A stretch of 64,000 nucleotides of DNA, from contig SCHM01000004.1 in assembly GCA_004123355.1 (NCBI GenBank), positions 7,405,017 to 7,469,016 on the forward strand, in the 5' to 3' direction. Made by a program: the position numbers and the translations under genes. Below the pieces are notes generated by a model. It had not been told where the DNA came from. It searched no databases and worked only from the letters and a program-made list of their open reading frames with translations. This DNA comes from Amphirosellinia nigrospora. Taxonomy: Eukaryota > Ascomycota > Sordariomycetes > Xylariales > Xylariaceae. Below are positions 641 through 64,000 of this stretch, piece after piece (position 1 is the stretch's first letter; each line of letters opens with the position of its first letter).

Positions 641-2225
641 TAAATTAATAATATAATAATCGAATAAAAATAATAGCTAAACTAAAATAGCTTTAAAATT
701 TAGTAACTTTTAAATATATATTAATATAGTTAATTTTTTAAAAAGTTTATTTTATAATATTAATAAAAGCTTTTTTTTTTTTTTAAAAAAAAACTAAATT
801 ATTAGCCGATATATATAAACGAAAATTATTTTTTTTATTATTATAGCTTAAAAAAATAAGCAGCAAAATTATATTTAAGCTTATAAAAAAAAACGGAGCT
901 TTTTAATTTTATAAAAATAATTAATAATATAAACTATTTTATATATTAAAATTTATTGAAATTATATTTTATTAAATTAAACGTTTTAAAAGAAAAAAAA
1001 TATAAAATAATAGTTTTTTATATAAATAAAAGCTAAAACGGATAATAATTAGCTATTAATTTAATATAGTTTATTTTATTTTTAAATAAAATATTATTTA
1101 AAAATAAATATTAAAATAATATAATAAACTAAAAAATTTTATTTAATATAAATATATTATAATTTTAAAATTTAAATTAATTATTATAATTTTAATAATA
1201 AATATTTATTATATAAATAAATAAATTATAATTAATATAAATAATTATTAACTTAATATAAAAATTAAAATAAAATTAATAATTAATATATTAAAAGTTT
1301 TAGTTTAACGTTAAATATATTTTAAAAAAAAAAATTTAGTTTTAAATATTTTTTTATATTTATTAATAATTATAAACGTAATAAATAATATAATAATAAA
1401 AAATATTAACTATAGTTTATTAAAAATATTATTAATAAAATTAAATATTTATAGAAATAGAAATATATAAAATAAAAATTAAAAATTAAAACTATAGCAA
1501 AAATATAATATAGATTAAAAATTCGCAAAAATAATCGCTAAAATTAAAAAAATATAAATTAACTATTTTAAATTTAGCAAAAAAAAAAAAAAAATAATAT
1601 AATTCTTTATTTTTATTTATTAGTTATATTTTATATATAATAATAAATAATTTTTAATATTTTTATTATTTAAACGGATAAAAATAATTATATATTTTAA
1701 ATATATATTAAAATAATATTTTAAAAATAGCATATAATAAAAAATATTATTTTAAGCTAAAAAAATATATTATAAATTTTAAAAATTTATAATATATAAT
1801 ATAGCTAAATAAATAAAAAATATTAATAATATTATTTATAATATTTAAATAATATAATAAATCGGTAAAAAATTTAATAAACTAAAACTAATTTAAAAAC
1901 TATCGATATTATTTTATATAATTATAATAAACTTTATTATAAAACTATTAAAAATATTATTTATTAAATTATTTTAATAAATATTTAAATATAATACGTT
2001 TAATATTTTACTAATAATAATATATAAATTTAATAAAAAAACTTTATTAATATTAAAAAATATTAAATATAATAATAAAATAAATAATTATATTAATATT
2101 AATATTATTATTATATAACTAAAAAATATTATATAAATTTATTTTAAACTAAAATTTTAAGTTTATATTAAAGCTATAATAAATATTAGAAAAAAAAATT
2201 AAAAATAATATTAATAGTATTAAAA
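641..2225 (+). mobile_element. Family B large LTR element, internal fragment (copy 3)
   Basis: Aligns along its length with 49,341-51,600 (same strand, once the palindrome there is skipped) and with 57,400 down to about 55,750 (opposite strand). It starts about 3.5 kb inside the element because the family-A LTR abuts it on the left. It stops near 2,225, where the similarity to the nested B copy ends and the Gypsy relic begins. No terminal repeat is present. It is a fossil with many RIP changes. Protein function is not recognisable. Confidence 0.7.
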
Positions 2226-3899
2226 AATTAAACTTTAATAAATAAAAAAACTTAAATTATTACTATTTTAGCTATATATAATATATTAAATATTAAACTA
2301 GTTAATATATAAAAAATAAACTTATAATAAATATAGAAAAAAAAAAATTTTAAAAAAAATAGTTTTTTTTTAAAAAAAATATTTTTAAAAAATATTACTA
2401 ATTATAAAATAAATTTAATAAAAAAGAATTTAAATAAAAAATTTTATTATATATTTATATTTTATATAATAATAAATTTTTTTAATTATAAATAATTTTT
2501 TAAAAATATAAAAATAATATATATATAAATATAAACTAACGATTTATAAAAAAAATTATTAAACTATTTAATTTTATTATTATTATAAACTTTTTTATTA
2601 AAAAATTATAAAATATAATAATAAAAATAAAAAAAATATTAATTAGGTTTTTTATTATTATTAAAAATATATAAAAACTTTTAAAAATAAATTTATAATT
2701 ATTATTAATTTAATTTATAATATAATTTTAAACAAACTATAATTTAAATCTTATAATATTTTATTAAATTATTAATAAAATTATTTAATATTTTTATTTT
2801 AATTATTTTTAATTATAATATTAAATATTATTTAATAATAAATAAAATAAATATATAGCTATAATATTTAGTTTATTAATTTAACGCCGATTAATAAAAC
2901 TATAATTTTAAAATCAAAAAAACGTAACGTTAATAATAAAAAAAAGCAAAATAATATTTAAATAATATAAAACTAAAAATATTTATTTTAAAATATAATA
3001 ATCCGGTATAAAAAAACTTTAATAAAATAAAATAAATAATATCCGATTACTTTTTACTAAAACTTGTTTTTAAAAAATATAAACTATATTTTTTTATAAA
3101 AAATATAATTTCGATTTTTATTTAAAAGTTTAATAAAAAAAATCTTTATTATATAAAATAAAACAATATTAATTAATATAAAAAAAACTAATAATTAAAA
3201 TATTTAGTTTAAATATAATTATTTTTAATATAAATAAAAAAAAACCGGGTAAAAAATATTTATATTATTAATATTAATAAAATTAATAAAATAATTAGAA
3301 AATTAAAAAAAAAATAAAAATAATTTCTTAAAAAAAAAAAAAAAAAATTAAAATAAAAAACGTAAAAAAAATACTTAAAAAATACTAAAACATAATATAC
3401 GTTTTTAACTAAATAAACTTTAATACGTTATTATTATACTATTTATAAATAAACTATAAAATAAAATTTTTTAAAAATAAATTTAAAGCCGATTTAAATT
3501 ATAGCTTTTTATATAAAATATTATTAAATAAATTAAAAGCTATATAAAAATTTTTAATTAAAAATTTATATAAAAGTTTTATTAAATTTAATAATATTTT
3601 ATATAATATATTTATTTTATTTATAAAAAAAATAAATAATAAGCTTTATTTTTATATAAATTATTATAAACTAAATAAAATTATAAAAAAAAACTAATAT
3701 TTATTTTTTTTATTAAAAAAACTTTAGCTTATATTATTAAAATAAAAATTTTTACTTAATTTAATATATAATAAATATTTAATTATATTTATATATTATT
3801 TAAAAATAAAAATTATATAACGTTTTATATAAAATATAATATATTAATATTAATATTATTATTTAATTTTATTAATAAATTTTTAATATTATTAATAAT

Positions 3900-4450
3900 A
3901 TATTAATAATATATTATAATTTTTTAAACAATTTTTATAATAATACGCTAATAATATTATTATTTACTTAAAAATAATAAAAAAATATATTATTATATAT
4001 ATTATATATTAAAATAATTAATTTAAGCCGGATTATAAATTAATTTAAAAAAGTTTAAATTTTATATTATTAAAACTAAATTTTAAGTTATATTATTAAT
4101 ATTAAAAAAATTTAAATAAACTTTATTAAAATTAACGCTATATTAAAATAAAAACTTTTATATTAATTAAAAACGTATATATTTTTTTAGGATTTTATAA
4201 TTTTTATTATAATTTTATTAATATTTAAAGTTATATTATTATATTTTTAAACTAATTAATATAAAAAAGCATACTTTTTATATAAATTAAAAAATATAAA
4301 AAATTATTTTATTAATTTAAAAAAACTTTAATACGTTTTTTTTTTACTAAAATATTTTAATTATAACTTATTAATAAAAATTAAAACCGATTTTTTTTAA
4401 TAACGTTAGTTTTAGCGTATTATTATAATTATATAATAAAATTTAATATT
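3900..4450 (+). pseudogene. Gypsy reverse transcriptase / RNase H relic
   Basis: Family-typical spacing of the reverse-transcriptase catalytic box, followed by the connection segment and the start of RNase H, is still discernible in translation. This is a pol fossil with no coding capacity left. It supports the Ty3/Gypsy call and the plus orientation. The assignment rests on pattern reading of degraded sequence, not on a database match. Confidence 0.55.
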
Positions 4451-4562
4451 TTATATATTTTTCGAAAATATTTTATAATATTAAATTAAACTATAATATT
4501 ATAATAAAAATTATTAATAATTATATTATATTTTAAAAAATAAAAACTTAAACTAATTAATA

Positions 4563-5357
4563 ACGTACTACACAACCCATCCTGGCCACACAACCATCCT
4601 GGCCACTTAGGCTTGGCATTTTACTAAAATTATAATAACTTTACGGAACTAAGCTTAATCGGGAAATAATTTATAAGTTTAATATATAACTATATTTAGT
4701 ATATAAATATAATTTTTTTAATTTTTACGCTAGCTTAATAAGGTTATAAACCCCGGTTTTTAAAATAAGCTAAAAATAAAGCTAAAATAAAATCCTAGTT
4801 AGTACTAGCGTATAATTTACTAAAATTTTAAAAAAATTAAAATTAGATTTATTATGTTTTTTTATACTATTATATTTTTTTCGAATTTTTTAAGCTAAGT
4901 TTAGTATTTTTTTTTATTTTTTAAAGTATAAAATTTTTATTATTTTTTATTATTTTTTAATTTTTTTAATTTTTTTATTTAATTTTTTACATTTTTTTAT
5001 ACTTTAAAAAATAAAAAAATACTAAACCTAGCTTAAAAAATTCGAAAAATTAATATAGTATAAAAAAACATAATAAATCTAATTTTAATTTTTTTAAAAT
5101 TTTAATAAAATTATACGCTAGTACTAACTAGGATTTTATTTAGCTTTATTTTTAGCTTACTTTAAAACCGGGGTTTATACCTTATTAAGCTAGCGTAAAA
5201 ATTAAAAAAATTATATTTATATATTAAATATAGTATATATTAAACTTATAAATTTTTCCCGATTAAGCTTAGTTCCGTAAAGTTATTATAATTTTAGTAA
5301 ATTGCCAAACTTAAGTAGCTAGGATAGTTATGTGGCTAGAATAGTTATATAGTACGT
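4563..5357. mobile_element. Palindromic non-autonomous DNA transposon, Tc1/mariner-like (P1)
   Basis: An almost perfect inverted repeat, with a left arm of 4,563-4,930, a right arm of 4,999-5,357 and a T-rich spacer of about 68 bp. It is flanked on both sides by TA, the target duplication of the IS630/Tc1/mariner superfamily; for the sister copy P3 an empty TA site proves the duplication. The termini begin ACGTAC. The left terminus carries two tandem copies of a 17-bp subterminal motif (CACACAACCATCCTGGC). No transposase is encoded. The left tip is GC-rich and unmutated, while the right tip is partly RIP-changed. It sits inside the Gypsy relic and is therefore younger. Confidence 0.85.
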
Positions 5358-7345
5358 TAGCTATAATAAACTTTTTTAATATTATTATTAATTAAATATT
5401 AAAGTTTTTTAATAAAAATAATATTTTAATTTAAAATAAACTAAATAAATTAATTTTTTTTTAAAATATAACTTTTTAATATTATATTATTTTAAAAAAA
5501 AAAATATTTAGCTAATACTTTATTATAAAAATAAAAAAAACCTAACAATATAAAAAGCTAAAAAAAAAGTAATATTATTTTATAATATTTTAACTAATAA
5601 ATAATATAATATAATTAATTTTATATAAATAAAGTTATACTAAATAAATTTATTAAAATATATAACGAACTAATATTTTATAAAACTATAATTAATTAAA
5701 TAAATTTTTAAAAAAAACTATAAAAACATAAATATAAAATTTACTATTAATAATAAAAAATATATTTATTAAAAAAATATATTATAAATATTTACTATAT
5801 ATTTTAGCAAAAATAAAATATATAAACTTATTATTAATAATTTAAACTAAATAAAAATTATAACTATTATATAGCGAACTATATAAAATATAAACTTATT
5901 AAATATTTAAAAATAAACTTTTAATAAATTTATTTTTTAAATTTAAGCATATATAGCGCTATTTTATTATTAATTTTAAATAAATATTTAAAAATAAATA
6001 TAAATATAATAATATATTAATTATAATAAACTATTTAAATAAATAATATAAATATATATTTTATATTATAAAAATAACTATAAAAACGCTACTAAATATA
6101 TTATAAAAAACTTTTTAAATTTTTAAAATATTTATAACTATAATATTAAACTATAAACTTTAGTTTATTTTTACTTTTATAAATAACTATATAAACTAAT
6201 AAATATAAAATATATTAATTATTAAAATATTATAAAACTAAAATAAATAAAAATTATAAATAAATATATTAACTAAAAATTATAACCGTATATAAATTAT
6301 TATTAAAATAATTAGTTTAAATATATTTATTATAAATTATATTTAAATATAATTTTTTATACTTTAATAAAATTATTTTTTATAAAATTAAAATAAGTTT
6401 TTTAATATTATTTAATTTTAATTAAAAAATCGGACCGTAATAAAAAGCTATAAAAGCTTTTTAAAAAAAAAATAATTTAAATAAATATATAAAAAAAATA
6501 AAAAAATAGTATAATTTATCGAATTAATTAAAAAAACTTATAATATTTAAAAATATATAATTAATTAAACTAATAAAAATTAATATAAACTTAACTTTAA
6601 TAAAAAACTATATATTAATTTAAAAAAAAATAGTTTTAAAAAATAAACCGCTTATTAAATAAGCTAAACTTTTTATAATATATAAAAGTTTAAAATAAAC
6701 AAAAAAAACAAAAATATTTTTATATTAAACGTTTTTTTAATTTAAAAAATATTAAATTATTATTATATAAATTAACTATAAAATATTTTAATAATTTTAT
6801 TATTAAATTAAAAATAAAAAACCTAAAAAAAAATAATAAAACTTAAAAATAAAAAAAATTTTATTATTAAAAAATATAAATATTTTAACTTTACTATTAA
6901 AAGTTATATATATAAATAAATTAAAAAATTAAAACTTTAATAATATATAATATTTAAAAAAAATTTTAAAAATAATATAAAAGTACTAAAAATTTTTATA
7001 ATATAAACTTTAATTTAGCCGGATTTTTAGTAAAACTATAAATATAACTAAAAATAACGAAAAAAATAAATTTAATAAGCTATTTTAAATAATAATAAAG
7101 CAATAGTATAAAAAAAAATAACATAAAAAAAATATATAAATAAAAAAATATAAAATATTATATAATTTAAATATTATATTAAATAAAAAAACTTTAAATA
7201 ATTATAAAAAACTAATATAATAATTTAATAGTATAAAGCTTTACGAAAAATTATATTAATAAAAACCCAAAACGATTTTTTTTTTACTAAAAAGCAATTA
7301 TAATTTTAACCCGGTTAAATTTTTTTTTTCGAAAAAAAATAATTA
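5358..7345 (+). pseudogene. Gypsy RNase H remainder and integrase relic
   Basis: Continuation of the Gypsy pol fossil downstream of P1. Translation around 6,050-6,330 shows the spacing of a Gypsy integrase core C-terminal half: the HPQTDGQ-like neighbourhood and the helix after it. The sequence before it should be the rest of RNase H and the integrase N-terminus, but nothing there is distinctive. It is decayed by many changes. No LTR, polypurine tract or chromodomain could be recognised towards 7.3 kb. Confidence 0.5.
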
Positions 7346-7614
7346 TAAATCTATAAGCTTTAATAATTATATTTTATTATTAGCTATAATACTTATAATT
7401 TTTATTTATAATAACTACTATTTATAATAAATATATAACTATTATTCGTAATAATATAATATAATAAAAAATAAATATTAATAATAAATATAGCTACCCG
7501 CAAGTATTAAGCAGCTATTTATAATATAAACTTAAACTTTTTTTTTTTTACTTTATTTATAAATTTTATATATAATATATTATATATACTAAAGCTTTAT
7601 TTTTTTAAATATAT
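7346..7614. other. Unassigned AT-rich stretch
   Basis: Lies between the last plausible Gypsy sequence and the first base that aligns with family C. It contains a small less-decayed spot near 7,495-7,515 (ACCCGCAAGTATTAAGCAGC). It could be the 3' end of the Gypsy element or a scrap of another repeat. I see no gene or recognisable site. Confidence 0.3.
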
Positions 7615-10600
7615 AAAACGTAACTAATAGTTTAGTTTAATAATAAATTATTTAAATATTTTTATAATTAATTAACGTAATATAAATTAAAATATACTAG
7701 TTTAAAAATATTTTTAATTAAAATATTATTAGTTTTATTTTTTTAATAATTTTATAATATTAACGCGTTAATAAATAATTTAATTTATTTAAAAATTAGT
7801 TAATTATTATAATTAATATTTTTTATAATAATATTTAGTTTTAATTTTAAAGTTTAGTTTTTTTTAATAACGGTTTTTTTTAAATTGTTTTTTTTATATT
7901 TATTTTAAAATTTATTATATAATTTTAATATATTTTTTTTATTATTTTTGCTAATTTTTATACTTTTTTTTAAATAATATTTTTTAATTAATATATTAAT
8001 TATATTTATTATATAGTTAAGCTAGATAATAACTAAATATAAAAATTTAAATAATATTTTATAAAATTATATTTTATAAACTTATATAAAAAAAGCTATT
8101 ATAAAATTTATAGTAAATAAAGCTATTTTTTAATTATTTTAATAATAATTATAAAAAAAACGTAATTTTTAGTTTAAATATTTATAATAATTTTAGTTTA
8201 ATTTATTAATTTATAATATTTTAAAAATAATAATTTTTATATAATATTAAAAATTTTCGCTAGTTTATTAATAAAAACTAATATAATTAAAACTTTTTAT
8301 TAAAATTAATTTTTTTAATAATTTAAAAATTTAAAAAAGTTTTCTATAATATAAATAAATTATTTAAATTATTATTATTATTTATTATATAATATAAATT
8401 ATAATAGTTTGTTTAATTAATTAATTATTATAAATATAAACTTTTTTTTATTTTTATTTATTATTATTTTTTAAAATTTATTATTAAATATTAAAAAAGT
8501 TTTAAAAAAATTAATATAAATTATAATAATTTAAACGTTTTATTATAAAATGTTTTAATAATTAATAATTTAAATAGTTTTTATATATTAATTATAATTT
8601 TTATTAGTTTTAATTATTAATATTATAATATTATAAATTTATAAGTTTTATTTTACCCGGAATAAATAATTATAATATAATTATATATTTTTTTTAAAAT
8701 ATAAATAAATAATTATTTATTTTAAATATTATAAATTATTTTTTATAAATAATTAAACTTTTATTTAAAATTTAATTTTTATTTAAATTAATATAAGTTT
8801 TTTTTTAATAAACTTTTAAATTTAAAAACTATTAGTTTATTATAATTTTATTTATTATAAAAGTTTTAATAGTTAAAATATTAATTATAGCTTTTGCTTT
8901 AAATTTATATATAATAATTATTATATTAGTTATTTTTTTAAATTAAAAGCGTAAATAATAATATTTTTTTTATTTAAAAAAATATTAAATTTATTAATTA
9001 ATTAAAATATAATTATATATTTTTAATTTATTTTTTTTTTTATATTTATAAATTTTTTTACTTTTTTATAAAACGTTAATAATAACGTTTTTAGATTTAA
9101 TAAATATATAATAATAAAATTATAATTAATTATTAGTTTTATTTATTTTATTTATTATAAGTTAATTATTATTTAATATTAAAATATTTAAAAGCTTTAT
9201 AATTAATAATAATTATAAAAAGCTAATTAATTTAATTATTATTTAATTTTAGTTTTTAATATATTAACGTTTTTATTATTATTAATATTTTTTATTATAA
9301 ATTTTATAGTTTAATTTATAATATATAATAATATTTTTATTTATATAAATATTTTATTTATAAAGCTTAACATTTTATTAAAATTATAATAATTTTATAA
9401 AATTAAGCTTAATTAAGCAATAATTTATAAAGCTAATATATAATATAATAATATATAAAATAATTTTTTTTAATTTTTACGCTAGTTTAATAAAGCTATA
9501 TATTTTAGTTTTTAAAATACGTTAAAATAAAGCTAAAATAAAACTTTAGTTAATATTGCGGGTAATTTTAATAAAAATTTTAAAAAGTTAAAATTAAATT
9601 TAATATGTTTTTTTAAACTATATATATTTTTTTCGAATTTTCTAACTATTTTAGTATTTATTTTTACTTTTTAAACTATAAAATTATATTATTTTATTAT
9701 TTTTTTTAAATTTTTAATTTTTAAATTTTTAATTTTTTTATACTTTAAAAAATCAAAAGTAATTTAAAAGTACGTTAAAAATTCGAAAAAAATATATATA
9801 TATAAAAAAACGTATTAAACCTAATTTTAATTTTTAAAACTTTTATTAAAATTACCCGTTAATATTAACTAAGGTTTTATTTTAGCTTTATTTTAGCATA
9901 TTTTAAAAACTAAAATATATAGCTTTATTAAACTAGCGTAAAAAATTAAAAAAAAATTATTTTTATATATTATATATAATTATATATTAGCTTTATAAAT
10001 TATTGCTTAATTAAGCTTAATATAAATTATTATAATTTTAATAAAATATTAAGCTTTTATAAAAAAATATTTATATAAACAAAATGTTTATATATTACAT
10101 TATTATATAATATTTAAAAAAAACTATAATAAATATTATTTTTTTTTAAAAATAAATATTTAATAGCTATTTTATTAAAAACGTTTATTTTAACTTTAGT
10201 TTTTTTTTTATAATTATAATATATTAAAATAAAAATAATAATAAATAAATATTTTTTTATTAAAAGTTTTTTAATATTTTTATATTTATTTAATATATAT
10301 TTTTGTTTTATTAAATTAAACAAAAATTTAGTTATATAATTATATTTTATAATAAATTATTAATAAAAATTATAAAAATTTTATAAATAATTATATATTT
10401 TTTATTATAATAAAGTTTTTTTATTTTTTTATTATAATATTTTTTTAAAATTAATTTTAATATTATTATATTTTATAATAAAGCTAAAATATTTTATTTT
10501 AATAATATAAAATTATATTTTTTAATATTAGCTTAAAAACTATTAGTTTTAAATTGTTTTAATATTTTTATAATATAAATTTAATAATTTTTTAAATTAT

Positions 10601-10855
10601 TTAAAAATACTAATATATTATTTATATAAATATTATAAAATTATTTAAATATTTTTTTAAAATATTATTTATATATTTTTAAAATATCGTTAGTTTATTA
10701 AATAAACTAAAAAATAAAACTTTATATTTATATAATTTATATTTAGTTTTAAATATAATAAAGTTTTTATTATTTAAATATATATAAATTTTATTAAATA
10801 TTTATTAAATATTAATTTTTAAAAGTTTTAGTTTTTATAATATAAGCTAATAGTT
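7615..10855 (-). mobile_element. Repeat family C, unclassified, minus copy, interrupted by palindrome P2
   Basis: Reverse complement aligns with 38,787 to about 40,870 and, upstream of that, with the right end of both array spacers (22,155-22,441 and about 31,320-31,607). Here the two segments are continuous, so this copy shows what family C looks like without the family-A insertion. It is interrupted by P2 at about 9,320-10,100. No conserved protein domain was recognised in either orientation, so the class is open. It is heavily RIP-degraded. Confidence 0.62.
9320..10100. mobile_element. Palindromic DNA transposon P2, strongly RIP-degraded copy
   Basis: Same architecture and length (about 780 bp) as P1 and P3, with arms that pair across a centre near 9,710. 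The outer 50 bp on each side look unrelated at first. They align with the P1/P3 tips position by position if only C-to-T and G-to-A changes are allowed, so the copy is complete. The insertion point corresponds to about 39,240-39,255 in the uninterrupted plus copy of family C. It has no coding capacity. It is probably the oldest of the three copies, judged by decay. Confidence 0.72.
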
Positions 10856-51851: not shown

Positions 51852-54702
51852 TAGAAAATAAAATAACGTCCTTATTATTACTATTGCTATATTCTTCTCG
51901 ATTAAACTATTACTTATATTATTTTTTTATTGCTATCTTTATTATTATAATTTTTATTTTTTATATTATTTTTTTTTTATTTTTTTTATTATTATTTTTA
52001 TTTTTATTATTGTTTATATTTTTATTAACAATTTTTGTCCGTTTTAATATTATTATTATTATTTAAATCGGAGATATTAAACCGAACATAGCGTTTAATT
52101 TTATATTTTTTTTTTTCGTTATCTCCGAACATTTTGCTATTATTATTGTTTTTTTCGTTTTTTTATCGGTTTAGCCAAAAAAAGCTTTAAATTATATAAT
52201 AAAGCTCGTTAAAAAAAAACAAAAATATTAATAAAAATTATTATTATCTAAAATATATCGGTTTATTTAAAAAATAAAAATAAAAACATAAATAAATATT
52301 ATTATTATTATAAAAAATATCGTCGTAAAATATATTATTATTATATAATATTATTATTATAAAAATATTATTATTATTATAAAAAATATTAGTTTAATAA
52401 AACTAGTTTAAAACGTTAATTAAAACGTCCGTAAACTTAAAAAATATTTATAAACTTAAAAAAATAATTAAAAAATATTTCGTAATATAATATTATATAT
52501 TTTTATTTCAACAGTATTATTTATTTTTGCTTTAATATATATATTTCGTAGCATAGTTATTTTAAATAAATAATAATAATTTAATAGTTTTTATTACTAT
52601 TAATAAATCGTTATTATTATTATTATTTTTATTTAACGATTTATAATAACGCTTAATTATTATTTTAATAGTATATTTGTTTAGCGTTATTATTATTAAT
52701 AGTTTTTTATTTTTTATAGTTTTTACTAGTTTTAATATTATTATTATTAACTTTAATAAAAATAATATTTTTATAGTTTATTTATTTAATAAATATTAAT
52801 AATTAGTTAAGTTATAGCTTAAATTATAATATTTATAAAATTATTATAGTTACATTATTAATAAATTATTTCCGGATAATATTATTATTAATAAAAAACT
52901 AATAAATAATTATTAAACGGATTAAAATCTTAGTTATATTTTTAAATAATTATATTAGTCGGCGGTTTTATTATTTAAAAATTTTATTTTTAAATTTTAA
53001 TTACGTTTATAACTTTTTAATTTAATATTTTAGCTTTTATTTTTTTTTAAATAGCTTTTTTTATTATTATTTTAATATTATTTTATAAAAAGTTTATTTT
53101 ATTTAATAAATTTTTATTTTAATAATATATTTATTAATTTTAGCGTTTAATATTTTATATTATATTTTTAATTTAATATTTTTAAATTTTATAGCTTCGA
53201 TTTTTTTTTAAACTTTTTTATATTATTTTATTAAATATTTATTATTTTAATATTTATTAAAAATATTTTTATTATTACTAAAAACTTTATATATAATATT
53301 ATTTTAAACTTTTATAACGTTTTTTATATTATTTAAACCGAGCGAAATATTATTTTTATTTATTAAATAGAAAATTAGTTAAAATATAAAATAAAATATT
53401 TTTTTATATTATTATTAAATAGTTTAATAAGTTTATTATTATTTATAATTAAAAGTTAATTTATTTTAGTTATTAATTTTATAACTAATTTATTATTTAT
53501 AATTATTATTTTAAATATTAAAACTAATATTTTAGTATTTTATATATAGCTTTAAAACTATAAGCTATATAAAACTAGTTTTAGTTAAAAAATATTTTAT
53601 TATATTTAATAAAGTATTAAATTTATAAATTACGCTACTAAATATATAAAGCTTTAATTTTTTTATATTTAAAACGTTTAGTTTAATATTAACTATTTTA
53701 AAACGTATATTTAAACAATAAGCTATAATATTTTTAATTTTTTTTTAATTTTTAAATAAACTTTAAACTTTAAAATTATTAGTTAAAAGCGATTCGCGTT
53801 AGATTACTAACTATTTATTAAATATTATTGCTTAATTAAATTAAATATTTTAAAAATATTAGTTTTAATAGTTTTATATAGTATTATATATTTAGTAATA
53901 ATGTTTATATTTTTATATAATAATAGTTTGTTTTAATAATAAATTTAGTTTTTTATTTTAAAATTTTTTACGAAATTTTTAAAGTTTTCGACCTTATTAA
54001 TAACAGCTACGTAATTATTATACGCTTTTTTTTAGCTCGCTTTTTTAACCTATTGTTTATATTTTATATACGTTAAATAAATTCTTTTATTATAATTAAA
54101 CGTTAGTTCTAAAATCTTTTGTTTTATTAAAAAATTAACTATATTATAGTTAAAATATAGATTTATTCGTACAATTTAATCCCGGTTAATAAACGTTATT
54201 TTAAATATATCCGCGCAAAATTATAATTATAATATTTAATTATTACCGATATATAATAAAATAATAATGCTTAATTATTATACGCCTATTTATAAAATAT
54301 ATTATTCGTAATATTTAAACATAATAATATCGTTTATAATAATAGTATTAATATATATATAGTGCGTAATAATATACAAATATAAAAATGCTTATAATAT
54401 TATATAAGTACGAAAAATACATAATATTATAAAAATATTAAAATAATATTTTAGTAAAATATAGTAATAATATTATTATAAATATTATTTTTTAGTAAAA
54501 ATAGTTTTATGCTTTATTTAAATATATATTTATTTTTTACGCTAATAATGTTTTTAGTAAGATTTATATAGTTATTTTTAGTATTATATTTATAGTTTTT
54601 TAATTTTTAATTTTTTTATAGCTATACTATTATTTTTAGCTTTACTTTTATTAAACTAGTGTTTTAATTTAAGCTTTTTTAAGCTTTATTAAATATTTTT
54701 AT

Positions 54703-54992
54703 AGTTACGCTTCACACACTCGAAGAGACAGGCTCCGGCATATGTGGTATATTGCATATAAATCTACAGATAGAGTAGGAAGAAGGAAGGTCTAAGTCTA
54801 CAATACAGGCAACTGCTTAAATACTCGCGTGGGCAGCTGCATTCACTGCCAGTGCCTGCCTTCATTCACTGCAACTGCATTCACTGCGAATGGCAGTCAC
54901 GCATTCACTGCAAGTGGCAGTTACTGCAAGTAGAGATTACGGGTGCTGTGGCTAGTGGTGGGCACAGCCACCAGAGCCGCAGATCCGTAACT
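54703..54992. mobile_element. GC-normal 290-bp non-autonomous DNA element (MITE-like) that escaped RIP
   Basis: The only stretch of this length with ordinary base composition and abundant CA and TG. Ends are the inverted repeat AGTTACG...CGTAACT, flanked by TTTAT on both sides. A longer, indel-blurred duplication of about 8 bp, as in hAT elements, is possible. The host B copy has the unoccupied site at about 62,885-62,900, which confirms an insertion. Inside lies a GCATTCACTGC-type repeat of about 24 bp, four copies (54,840-54,930). No open frame of note. Family unknown. Being under about 400 bp may have shielded it from RIP, or it arrived after RIP ceased. Confidence 0.8.
54840..54935 (+). 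repeat. Minisatellite inside the 290-bp element
   Basis: Four occurrences of CATTCACTGC at spacings of about 15-25 bp, the last two within a clearer 24-bp unit that also contains GGCAGT. It lies centrally to rightward in the element and retains an unmutated sequence. Confidence 0.7.
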
Positions 54993-56684
54993 TTTATTAT
55001 ATTTTTACACTAAATTAATAACGTTTTCTATTAGTAATACTTTAAATACTATTTATTATATTAAGCTTTAAAACCTTTTTATTTAATTAAATATTTTAAT
55101 AACGGATGTTTTTTTAAACGATTAATTTTTTTAGCGAAAATATTATCGATTTTATATAATATTTATTTATTATTATTTTTTTCGATAAAAATACGTCCTA
55201 ATACTAGTTTTTACCTCTAGAAAAAGTTAACCCCTTTTAGTACTAAATATAACTATACTATAAATATACTTTATAAATTTTTTAATATTATAAAATTTAG
55301 TTTATATGCTAGCTTATTTATTTTTATTAATATAATAAATAGTTCGGTTTTTTATATAAACTATTTATAAAAAAGTTTTTAAACAAATAGTATTTTTTTA
55401 AAATTATAAAAAACTTTATTTTTAATATTAAATTATATAAAATTATACTTAGCGTTATATTATATTTTAGCGTTTATTACTAAATTATATTATAATTTCT
55501 ATGTTTTATTAATATAATTTTAATATAATTAAAAATTTATAATATTATCGGGTATTTTTAAAATTAATAACGCTTTATAACTTAAAACCTAGTACTAATT
55601 CGTTTAATAATATTTTAATAACTATAAACTTAATATTATTTATATTATACTTACTATAAATATAAATCTAATTATATTAATTTTAAATTTATTATTAATA
55701 ATATTAAATAATAATTTAATATTTTAATTATATTATTTGCTTTAACTATTAATTTATAAATAATAGCTTATTAATACTGCTAATATTATCTTTATTTTAT
55801 TTATAATATTTATTATAGCTCTAATATAAACTTAAAATTTTAGTTTAAAATAAATTTATATAATATTTTTTAATTATATAATAATAATATTAATATTAAT
55901 ATAATTATTTTTTTATTATTATATTTAATATTTTTTAATATTAATAAAGTTTTTTTGCTAAATTTATATATTATTATTAATAAAATATTAAACGTTATAC
56001 CGGGTATTTATTAAAACAATTTAATAAATAATATTTTAGTAGTTTTATAATAAAGTTTATATATAACTATATAAAATAGTATTAACGGCTTTTAAATCGG
56101 TTTTAGTTATTAAATATTTTCTGCGATTTATTATATTATTTAAATATTATAAATAATATATTAATATTTTTTATTTATTTAGCTATATTATATATTATAA
56201 ATCTTTAAAATTTGTAGTATATTTTTTTAGCTTAAAATAATATTTTTTATCGTACGTTATTTTTAAAATATTATTTAGTATATATTAGGATATATAATTA
56301 TTTTTATCCGTTTAAATATTAAAAATATAAAAAACTATTTATTATTATATATAAAAATATAACTAATAAGTAAAAACGGAGAAATATATTATTTTTTTTT
56401 TTTTTTTGCTAAATTTAAAATAACTAATTTACGTTTTTTAATTTCTGCGATTATTTTTGCGAATTTCTAATTTATAGTATAACCTTGCTATAGTTTTAAT
56501 TTTTAGTTTTATTTATATATATTTTTATTTCCGTAAAATATCCGATTTTATTAATAATATTTTTAAACGAACTATAATTAACATTTTTTATTATTATATT
56601 ATTTATTACGTTTATAATTATTAATAAACGCGAAAAAATATTTAAAACTAGATTTATTTTTTTAAAAATATATTTAATATTAAA

Positions 56685-56715: not shown

Positions 56716-59700
56716 ATTAGCTTATATTAAACTTAATAATATTTATTAATTATAGATTTATTTAATTAATAATTTTTTTTATTATTTAATAATTAATAAT
56801 ATTATTATTAAAATTATATATAATTATATTTAAACTTTAAAATTATAATATATTTATATTAAATAAATATTTTTAGTTTTATTATATTATATTAATGCTT
56901 ATTTTTAAATAATGTTTTTTTAAAATAAAATAAGCTATATTAAATTAATAGTTAATTATTGTTTATTTTAGCTTTTATTTATATAAAAAACTATTATTTT
57001 ATATTTTTTTTTTTTAAAACATTTAATTTAATAAAATATAATTTAAATAAATTTTAATATATAAATAGTTTATATTTATTAATTATTTTTATAAAATTAA
57101 AAAGTTTTATTTTTTTTTTTTTTATAAGTTCGAATATAATTTCGCTGTTTATTTTTTCGGGCTATAATAGTAAAAAAAATAGTTTTTATTTTACGTATAT
57201 TAGCTAGCAATTTAGTTTTTTTTTTAAAAAAAAAAAAGCTTTTATTAATACTATAAAATAAACTTTTTTAAAAAACTAATTATATTAATATATATTTTAA
57301 AAGTTGCTAAATTTTAAAGTTATTTTAGTTTAACTATTATTTTTATTTAATTATTTATTATTATTAATTTATAATTATTTATTATAAATTTTAATAATTT
57401 TACTGCTAAATATATTACGAATAATTTATTAGTTTTTAATTTAAAATTAATTTTATTATATATATTTAAAATAGCTTTATATACTAGAAAATTTTTCGGC
57501 TATTTTAAAATAAATAATAATATTATTTATATAAATTTTTGCGTAATATATATAGTAAAAGCTTTTTGTTTATAAATCGTTATATATAGCTAGAGCTATT
57601 TTTAAATTTTATTAACGCTATATACGATATTTTTAATTTTTTAAATAATATAATAATTATTTAATTATAATAATTTAGTTATACTAAAAACTAATAATAA
57701 AATTTTTTATAATTTATAATTATTACGTAATAATATTTTTAAATCCGTATAATAATAGCTTTTAAAATAAACAATAAATAATAATCTAAAATTATTATTT
57801 TATTTAATAATTATAAATTAATTATTATTTATTTTTTATATTTATTATTTACTATTTGTTATATTATAAATATTAAATATTTAAATAATATTAGTTTATT
57901 TATATATATATTTTATTTTTTAATATATTTTATTTAAAATTTTATTTACTAGCTTTTAGTTTTAATTCTTAAAGTATATAGCCGGGCTATAGTAGTAATT
58001 TAATTTTGCTAACTTTTAACTAGTTTTATTTATATTATATTTTTTTTCTATTTTTATAATATTTTATATATGCTATATTTTATGTTTTTTTAATATTATT
58101 TTTAGTTGTTCTATATATATAAGTTAATTATATATATATAAATATTATTTTTAGTCCGAATAAAAAAGAAATTTTTAAAATATTAAGCGCTAAAAAAAAA
58201 TAATTTTTCTAATATATTATGTTTAGGTTTATTTTTTATTATTACTATTTAAATATTTTTTTAGTAGCGTTTTTTAAAGCTAATATAGTTATAATATTAT
58301 TTGTTAGGTTAAATTTTTACGCAAGCTATAAATTTACGTTATTTTTTTTAGTAATAATATTTTTATTTTTACCGGTTATAATATATATATTTATATTAGC
58401 TTATTTTATATTATTAATAAGTATTTTTTTGTAGTTTAATAATATTTATTTTTATTTTATATTTAATTTAAATTAGCTTATTTATATAGTTAATAAAAAT
58501 AATTTTTAAGTTTTTTAAATTTATATTAAAGTCTAATATATTTAGTTTAAATATATAATTTTATATAGAACTTTTAATATTTAAAAAGATTTATATATTT
58601 ATTATATTGCTATTATTATATATAATAAACTTATTATTTTATTGCTATATATTTTTTGGCTATATTTGATTTTTTTTTTTATTTTATAATAAAATATTAT
58701 TATTTATACGATTTTATTATAATAATTTAGCTTAAAAATTAATATTAATATTATATTTTATTTAAAACTTTATTTTAAATAATATATTTAATCGAATTTA
58801 TTTTTAGTTATATTATTATTTTAATTAAACCGTTTTTATTTATATTATTTATAGTTTTTTTTAAAATTAATATTAAATAATACGTTTTATTAAACTAATT
58901 ATTTTACCGATATTACGTATATTTAAAGTTTATTTAGTTTAAATTTATACTTTAGTATAATTTTATAACTTATTTATAGTCGCTAAATTTAATAGCTTTA
59001 TTAAATATATTATTATATTTTATATTTTTACTTTATTATATTACGCTTATATATTAATATAAAATAAATATTTAAAGTATATTAAAGCTTTATTTATAGT
59101 TATATAATAATAGTTTAAATATTTCGTCCGATATAAAAACGTTTATTTTAAAAGCTTTGCTTAATATAGTTTATTATTTTTAGTTTTATTTACTAGTTTA
59201 TTTTAAAATATATATTTTAATAATATTATCGTATAATATTAAATAAAAATTTATTTTATTTAAAATTTTTATTTATAATTATAATAAATAAATATTTATA
59301 TCGCTAGCTAATTAGTTTTTAAATAGTTATATTAGTTTTATTAAGTAAAAAAAATAATAATTAGTTTATTTTTCTGTTAAAATATTTTATAAAATTTTTT
59401 TCGTTTTTTTTTTAACTTTATTTATTATATATAGCTTTTTTTTTAACTTTTATTCCTAGGATTAAATATCCTAATTATTTAATGCTAATATTATTTTATT
59501 TTTTTTACGGCGTATATACTATTTAATATTTATTAGGGCTTAATTTACCGATAATATATTTGCTAAAACGGGCGATAAATATAGCAAAACGTTTATTTTA
59601 TTTATTACGTTTATAATAGCTTTTATTATTTTTTAATTTTATTTATTATAAAGTTTCTATAACTATTACGTAAATTTTATTATTTTTTAAAGCTATTACG

Positions 59701-62085: not shown

Positions 62086-62230
62086 TAATAGCGTATAGTT
62101 TATTAATTCTAAAATTATTAAATTATTAAACTAAGTTTATACTAAACGTTGTTTTAAAAATAACGTTTTACGGATAATATTTAGCTTATTAAATATTATC
62201 TTAAAGATAGTATTTTAAAATAGCGTTATA
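62086..62230 (-). repeat. 5' LTR of the nested family-B element
   Basis: 145 bp, matching the 3' LTR. The adjoining internal sequence (62,085 leftward on the minus strand, with GCTAGCGATTAATAGTTGCC) is where a primer-binding site would lie. I could not match it to a tRNA end. ATTAT follows directly on the outer side. Confidence 0.75.
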
Positions 62231-64000
62231 ATTATAATATAATATAAATAATGCTAAATTTATAGTTATTAAAATTATTAAATAAATTAATGCTAAACTT
62301 TAAGCTATAAATATATTATTAATTTTAAAAATATTTAATAATATTATAAATTTTTAATTATATTAAAAGTTATATAGCAAAATATAAAAATTATAATATA
62401 ATTTATAATAATAAACGCTAAAATACGGTATAATATTAAATATAATTTTATATAATTTAATATTAAAAATAAAGTTTTTTTACGATTTTATAAAAAATAT
62501 TATTTATTTAAAAAAAATTTTTATAAATAGTTTATATAAAAAACCAGACTGTTTATTATATTAGCGAAAATAAATAAACTAACGTATAAATTAAACTTTT
62601 TATAATATTAAAAAGTTTATAAAATATATTTATAGTATAGTTATATTTAATATTAAAAAAAGTTAATTTTTTTTAAAAGTAAAAACTAATATTAAAATAT
62701 ATTTTTATCGAAAAAAACAATAAATAAATATTATACGAAATCAATAATATTTTCGCTAAAAAGATTAATTATTTAAAAAATATTTATTATTAAAATATTT
62801 AATTAAATAAAAAAGCTTTAAAGTTTAATATAATAAATAGTATTTAAAATATTATTAATAAAAAACGCTGCTAATTTAATATAAAAATATAATAAAAAAT
62901 ATTTAATAAAGTTTAAAACGCTTAAATTAAAATATTAGTTTAATAAAAATAAAGTTAAAAATAATAATATAGCTATAAAAAAGTTAAAAATTAAAAAACT
63001 ATAAATATAGTACTAAAAATAACTATATAAATCCTATTAAAAATATTATTAATATAAAAAATAAATATATTTAAGTAGGGTATAAAACTATTTTTACTAA
63101 AAATAGTATTTATAATATTTATTATATTTTATTAAAATATTATTTTTATTTTTTAATATTGCGTACTTTTATATTTATATAATATTATAAGTATTTTTAT
63201 TTTTATACTATTATATATTATATATATTTATATATTATTATAAAGAATATAGTTATAATTATAATAATATTATTATATTTAAATACTATAAATAATATAT
63301 TTTACGAATAAGTATATATAATTAAGTATTATTATTATTTTATTATATATTAATAATAATTAAGCATTATAATTATAACTTTTACGTAAATATATTTAAA
63401 ATAACGTTTATTAACCGGAACTAAATCGTATAAATAAATCTATATTTTAATTATAATATAATCGATTTTTTAATAAAATAAAAGATTTTAAAATTAATTT
63501 TAATTATAGTAAAAAATTTGCTTAATATATATAAAAATAAATAATAAGTTAAAAAAGCAAGCTAAAAAAAATATATATAATAATTATATAGCCGCTATTA
63601 ATAAAGTTAAAAACTTTAAAAACTTTATAAAAAACTTTAAAATAAAAACTAAATTTATTATTAAAAAACTATTATTATATAAAATATAAATATTATTATT
63701 AATATATAATATTATAAAACTATTAAAAACTAGTATTTTTAAAATATTTAATTTAATTAAGCAATAATATTTAAAAAATAGTTAATAATTTAGCGTAAAT
63801 TGTTTTTAACTAATAGCTTTTAAAGTTTAAAGTTTATTTAAAAATTAAAAAAATTAAAAAATATTATAGTTTATTGTTTAAATATACGTTTTAAAATAAT
63901 TAATATTAAATTAAACGTTTTAATATATAAAAAAATCGAAGCTTTACGTATATTTAATAGTATAATTTATAAATTTAATATTTTACCGAATATAATAAAA
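62231..64000 (+). mobile_element. Family B host copy, segment right of the nested insertion
   Basis: Reverse complement of about 55,660 down to 53,600 in the nested copy, without the 290-bp element. It contains that element's empty site near 62,890. The element continues beyond the window. Translation in the best frame shows Q/K/L-rich runs but no domain that I recognise. Strongly decayed. Confidence 0.7.

Follow-up and report, generated by a model that had tools for sequence, protein, structure and literature searches.

A short GC-normal island in RIP-mutated DNA of Amphirosellinia nigrospora is a chromovirus solo LTR that was probably too short for efficient RIP

The 290-bp element at positions 54703-54992 of the window, i.e., the 64,000-nucleotide stretch C6:7405017-7469016 of the 48.1 Mb genome (11 contigs), is a solo LTR of a Ty3/gypsy chromovirus, and it has probably stayed un-mutated because it is too short for efficient RIP. 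The RIP state of the LTRs in this family tracks whether they are solo or attached to internal sequence, which favours escape by shortness. The features discussed below are listed in Table 1.

Table 1. Coordinates of the solo LTR, its parent element and related features (window positions unless a contig is given)
Feature	Position	Strand	Basis or remark
Solo LTR, 290 bp	54703..54992	- (element sense is the minus strand)	95% identity to both LTRs of the intact 6,848-bp copy
Left target-site duplication TTTAT	54698..54702		
Right target-site duplication TTTAT	54993..54997		
Terminal inverted repeat AGTTACG	54703..54709		LTR end, not TG..CA
Terminal inverted repeat CGTAACT	54986..54992		
Four GCAGTGAAT cores, the "24-bp minisatellite"	54841..54911	-	Sequence reading, spacing and period analysis
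TATTTAA, possible promoter box	54817..54823	-	Motif also at LTR position 173 of the intact copy
ATCTGTAGAT	54762..54771	-	Complement of the first 10 nt beyond the 5' LTR of the intact copy
RIP-saturated copy of the chromovirus	2108..7625	+	Element positions from about 1,880-2,020 to the 3' end
RIP-saturated 3' LTR of that copy	7341..7625	+	106 of 138 C/G sites mutated
Empty insertion site in the inverted host copy (B)	62892..62896	-	
Intact un-mutated copy, 6,848 bp	C4:4988194-4995041		

The insert has a GC content of 0.50 between flanks of 0.12 and 0.13, it is exactly 290 bp long, and its ends are 7-bp inverted repeats. The initial annotation, which described an un-RIPed element with short inverted termini and a target duplication inside RIP-mutated DNA, is thus confirmed to the base. 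The element is a single LTR with the duplication present and no internal sequence adjoining. In the rows that align base 1 to base 290 the LTR ends are AG..CT; TG..CA ends are usual in LTR retrotransposons, though not universal. The 24-bp minisatellite noticed earlier within the element is a period-24 similarity (21 of 24 columns), the spacings of its four cores being 24, 15 and 23 bp.

The insertion site is also found empty. The empty counterpart noted at about 62,890 lies at about 62,892 in the inverted B copy of the host repeat, in an alignment of 596 columns with 513 identities, 61 transitions and 4 transversions. The host repeat has 20 other near-full copies with 78-88% identity, and the insert is absent from all nine copies examined, namely B and eight picked among these 20. 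The T run at the insertion site is longer by one base in eight of the nine, and the ninth (L153) has three extra bases near it, so the joined flanks match, but not letter by letter. At the target, the other host copies are AT-rich, with a GC content of 0.06-0.10.

The host itself had been taken for a retroelement, a view that is not confirmed. Its numerous near-full copies include several near contig ends. When the chromovirus internal region was compared with the window, the 12 best matches on each strand all fell outside the host stretch. The nearest match, at 56,881, scores 0.71 and is no better than the control, which reaches 0.73. A relationship between the host and the chromovirus was therefore rejected, and the host is left unclassified. 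The repeat occupies window positions 53595-55693 and about 62218-64000, the copies near contig ends are on C1, C5, C7, C9 and C10, and it is possibly a subtelomeric repeat rather than a retroelement.

The parent of the solo LTR is represented by an intact, un-mutated copy on another contig. Its two LTRs are identical over 296 bp, in the same orientation and 6.55 kb apart, and TAAAT outside both ends is its target duplication. The coding strand is opposite to the window orientation and contains frames of 527 aa (gag position), 654 aa (reverse transcriptase) and 811 aa (RNase H, integrase and chromodomain). The domains follow the pol order of reverse transcriptase, RNase H and integrase (RVT_1; RT_RNaseH_2 and RT_RNaseH; Integrase_H2C2; rve). 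The intact copy has a frame break, with reverse transcriptase in one frame and RNase H-integrase in another that overlaps it. A chromodomain at the integrase C-terminus matches Pfam Chromo above the cutoff (E 4.8e-7), and this region matches CBX7 and HP1 chains in PDB. The polypurine stretch GAGGGGGGT adjoins the 3' LTR on its upstream side. From the paired LTRs, the reverse transcriptase, RNase H, integrase and chromodomain, and the polypurine tract it follows that the parent is a Ty3/gypsy chromovirus with unusual LTR ends, AG..CT, and that the window feature is its solo LTR.

In its LTRs, 5-bp duplications, domain order, polypurine tract and possible self-complementary primer site, the element resembles other fungal chromoviruses. 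It differs in its LTR ends and in that no Pfam gag domain was found in the 527-aa frame and likewise no protease match. This frame (L031 5382-6965, minus strand) matches HeLo below the cutoff (PF14479; E 1.1e-4; 22.6 bits, cutoff 23.2). The Tf1/sushi group is the self-priming group among fungal chromoviruses. Here, the first 10 nt past the 5' LTR are complementary at 10 of 10 positions to LTR position 226, and inspection by eye revealed no TGG, as in a tRNA primer site, next to the 5' LTR. Of the 6,246 internal 10-mers, five, among them this one, find their complement within the LTR, so that the complementarity of ATCTGTAGAT is a weak lead towards possible Tf1-type self-priming.

Relatives of the LTR are dispersed in the genome. 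A DNA search with the 290-bp element gives at least 41 matches (the best 40 of 157 candidates scored), its 26-base end pattern occurs at 49 places with up to three mismatches, while the reversed control occurs at none, and 67 matched places, fragments included, were mapped from 68 loci. A perfect 5-bp duplication flanks 25 of the 47 complete copies, where 0.70 are expected on re-pairing the flanks; this length falls within the 4-6 bp of Ty3/gypsy elements. The 25 duplications have T in 19 and A in 3 at position 2 (p 0.0009), and A in 17 and T in 5 at position 4 (p 0.017). This is a symmetric target preference, often seen with integrases.

These copies bear directly on what kind of sequence the insert is. 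That the host repeat captured an ordinary host fragment has a negligible probability: nothing in favour of it was found, and it is refuted by the dozens of copies that are scattered over the genome, share sharp ends and have duplications. The element is a mobile insertion, as the initial annotation held. That annotation also proposed that many near-identical copies with short duplications would show a recently active MITE, with an 8-bp duplication supporting hAT. Many relatives with short duplications do exist, and the short inverted ends and near-identical copies would suit a MITE moved by the transposase of hAT or another cut-and-paste superfamily. However, the duplication is 5 bp, the flanks match over 8 bp in only one of the 47 complete copies, the inverted ends are no longer than 7 bp, and both LTRs of a gag-pol element consist of this sequence, which also adjoins that element's mutated internal ends at dozens of sites. 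The 5-bp duplications and paired LTRs thus lead us to reject a MITE or hAT origin, which we regard as very improbable; the parent is an LTR retrotransposon.

Some insertions have informative surroundings. Both 500-bp flanks are below 25% GC in 19 of the 27 solos and at least one is in 22, while neither is in five; the AT-rich flanks fit chromodomain-guided insertion into heterochromatin, the counts describing solos alone without a claim of enrichment. Three LTRs (L019, L054 and L057) abut sequence that starts with AGTTACGGAG or its RIP-mutated form and shares their end motif; it may belong to a related LTR family that inserted next to them. Two LTR remnants (L040 and L043, on C1 and C9) have flanks in common, tgtgcagttggt and ttagcaatactt, so both are probably inside a larger duplicated GC-normal unit.

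The window also shows what happens to longer copies of the same element. When it is compared with the intact copy, counting transitions as matches, 4,702 bases of the saturated copy can be aligned with 54% identity and 830 gap columns. The differences comprise 68 transversions and 2,094 transitions, 2,058 of them C-to-T or G-to-A, and the GC content falls from 0.524 in the intact copy to 0.088. The mutated fraction is 0.96 in CA, 0.84 in CT, 0.83 in CG and 0.76 in CC context. In the attached copies, C-to-T and G-to-A changes are far above all others, as in RIP-mutated repeats. A search of the window's first 9 kb did not recover the 5' part of the saturated copy. Its mutated sequence is common, as a 901-bp piece has at least 39 other close copies with 88-93% identity (the best 40 of 2,388 candidates scored); an overlapping 801-bp piece of the intact copy has five other matches, at 65-69%.

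Two further observations concern this part of the window. At about 4,597-5,461 the RIP-mutated copy contains some 0.87 kb with no match in the intact copy, possibly a nested insertion. At about 7,600-10,800 a weaker purine/pyrimidine match in the opposite orientation reaches 0.82 over 150 bp, against up to 0.73 in the control, and suggests a second, more distant RIP-mutated relative.

The contrast between lone and attached LTRs was examined at 61 places. Of these, 27 are solos that have a duplication and 15 are attached LTRs; the rest are the intact pair and 17 others with neither a duplication nor internal sequence adjoining. The median fraction of mutated C/G sites is 0.03 in the 27 solos and 0.24 in the 15 attached LTRs (p = 6e-7, intact pair and others excluded). 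The fraction is below 0.15 in 25 of 27 solos and 14 of 17 others but in only one of 15 attached LTRs. The exceptions are two solos with RIP-like mutation at 0.20 and 0.33, one attached LTR at only 0.11, and the intact copy, which is not mutated at all.

As these 61 places came from an un-mutated query, two samples were added by way of mutated internal sequence. On the 5' side, 20 of at least 40 listed places were fetched and the LTR was located at 19; on the 3' side the numbers are the same, leaving out places beside LTRs found with the saturated query. None of these 38 attached LTRs is mutated below 0.15, the least mutated reaching 0.23. Fisher's test of 25/27 solos against 0/38 attached gives 5e-16; solos and attached LTRs were sampled differently, so the weight lies on the pattern and not on this figure. 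The reverse search, with the saturated LTR of the window, gave 40 full matches (the best 40 of 309 candidates scored, 14 short weak matches excluded). All 39 of those fetched adjoin internal sequence, 32 as 3' and seven as 5' LTRs, which with the window's own 3' LTR makes 40 of 40; their flank scores are at least 42, compared with at most 28 in the null. Because the solos were collected with an un-mutated LTR as query, mutated ones among them could be under-represented. The two sets also differ in subfamily make-up, since 12 of 27 solos but 9 of 75 attached copies belong to a short length class.

Mutation is uneven along the attached LTRs. The 19 5' LTRs (among L108-L127) have mutated fractions of 0.31 at the outer end but 0.85 and 0.68 close to the internal region, i.e., RIP tends to fade towards the outer side, perhaps because the mutated repeat ends there. 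Less of a slope is seen in the 19 3' LTRs, with 0.58 at the inner end, 0.51 at the outer end and 0.78 between. The bin with peak mutation is also the highest in solos (0.16), so part of the rise reflects sequence or subfamily differences and not the distance from the edge.

The initial annotation had offered two reasons for the normal composition, a length below the RIP threshold and arrival after RIP had ended; the former is now better supported, the latter less so. An unlikely but real possibility is that RIP had already ceased or become weaker in the lineage by the time the LTR arrived or became solo. It would agree with the un-mutated full-length copy with identical LTRs and with the AT-rich target in the other host copies. 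The age of the LTRs can be judged from transversions, which RIP does not make, here in the 27 solos and 75 attached LTRs with complete ends, a set that excludes the 15 attached LTRs of the 61 places. Overall the distances are 0.0060 among solos, 0.0069 among attached LTRs and 0.0064 between them (p = 0.62), so that solos are as diverse as the RIP-mutated attached LTRs, contrary to a late arrival. Solos and attached LTRs also agree in the frequency of a polymorphism at LTR position 193 (11 of 27 and 30 of 75). When neighbours are ranked by transversions, the nearest ones include an attached copy for 26 of 27 solos, which also speaks against a late arrival.

The length classes, however, differ. 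In the long class, to which the window copy belongs, diversity is lower in solos than in attached LTRs (0.0027 and 0.0066, 15 and 66 sequences, one-sided p = 0.017), which fits a later arrival or alignment error in saturated copies. Attached LTRs of this class that are less than 60% mutated have 0.0035 (19 copies), close to the solos, so misaligned saturated copies may account for part of the attached excess. The short class shows the opposite, with the higher diversity in solos (0.0089 against 0.0040; 12 and 9 sequences), which speaks against a late arrival. The long-class result weakens the claim that solos are as old as the mutated copies, and as its solos are less diverse, a later arrival is possible for the window copy. 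For the LTR family as a whole, escape by length is the better explanation.

We suggest the following course of events. A Ty3/gypsy chromodomain retrotransposon inserted into AT-rich DNA that RIP had probably mutated beforehand, making the 5-bp duplication. Judging from the anatomy, recombination between its LTRs would have removed the internal region and left one LTR, presumably before RIP acted on it. Longer copies, recognised as repeats, were mutated at most C/G sites. A lone LTR of about 290 bp would lie below the size for effective RIP and so would have kept its normal composition despite more than 40 similar copies; its length, not recent arrival, would then be the cause of the sparing. 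Premeiotic loss of linked repeats, as in Neurospora, would offer a route to solos before RIP.

The proposed threshold can be compared with known systems. RIP in Neurospora crassa is described as requiring about 400 bp for linked or 1 kb for unlinked repeats with more than 80% identity (cited in PMC5555474), and as inefficient on repeats shorter than about 500 bp, with next to no effect on those under about 200 bp (PMC9970103), so that 290 bp falls between the latter two limits. RIP in N. crassa agrees with our data in C-to-T change on both strands, CpA as the most affected context and the sparing of short repeats, while the window copy differs in being nearly saturated in every context, from CA to CC. 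In Zymoseptoria tritici, MITEs likely escape RIP by shortness (PMC9970103); they are, like the solo LTR, short, GC-normal, multi-copy and little affected by RIP. Here, however, the spared unit is a solo LTR, often in RIP-mutated DNA, and the same sequence is mutated when attached. Fungal solo LTRs are well described, e.g., the 468 reported for Paracoccidioides (PMC4427930). In the main texts of the open PMC literature we found no solo-versus-attached comparison of RIP within one LTR family, as far as the passages covered of PMC9910759, PMC4427930, PMC7584455, PMC5445492, PMC3562529, PMC6660238, PMC8105982, PMC3599309 and PMC9970103 show.

That short repeats escape RIP is already known, and the useful part of our results is the contrast between solo and attached LTRs within one family. 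The same sequence of about 290 bp occurs alone or joined to about 6 kb of repeat in one genome, and its mutation state follows this context, which provides a within-family test of the RIP length threshold outside Neurospora; the un-mutated copy serves as a reference for measuring RIP base by base. It can be speculated, tentatively, that LTR-LTR recombination races RIP. Copies that pop out early would be too short to be recognised, so RIP would select for solo LTRs, and these would persist as un-mutated, possibly promoter-bearing islands in saturated heterochromatin, where the chromodomain may guide new insertions.
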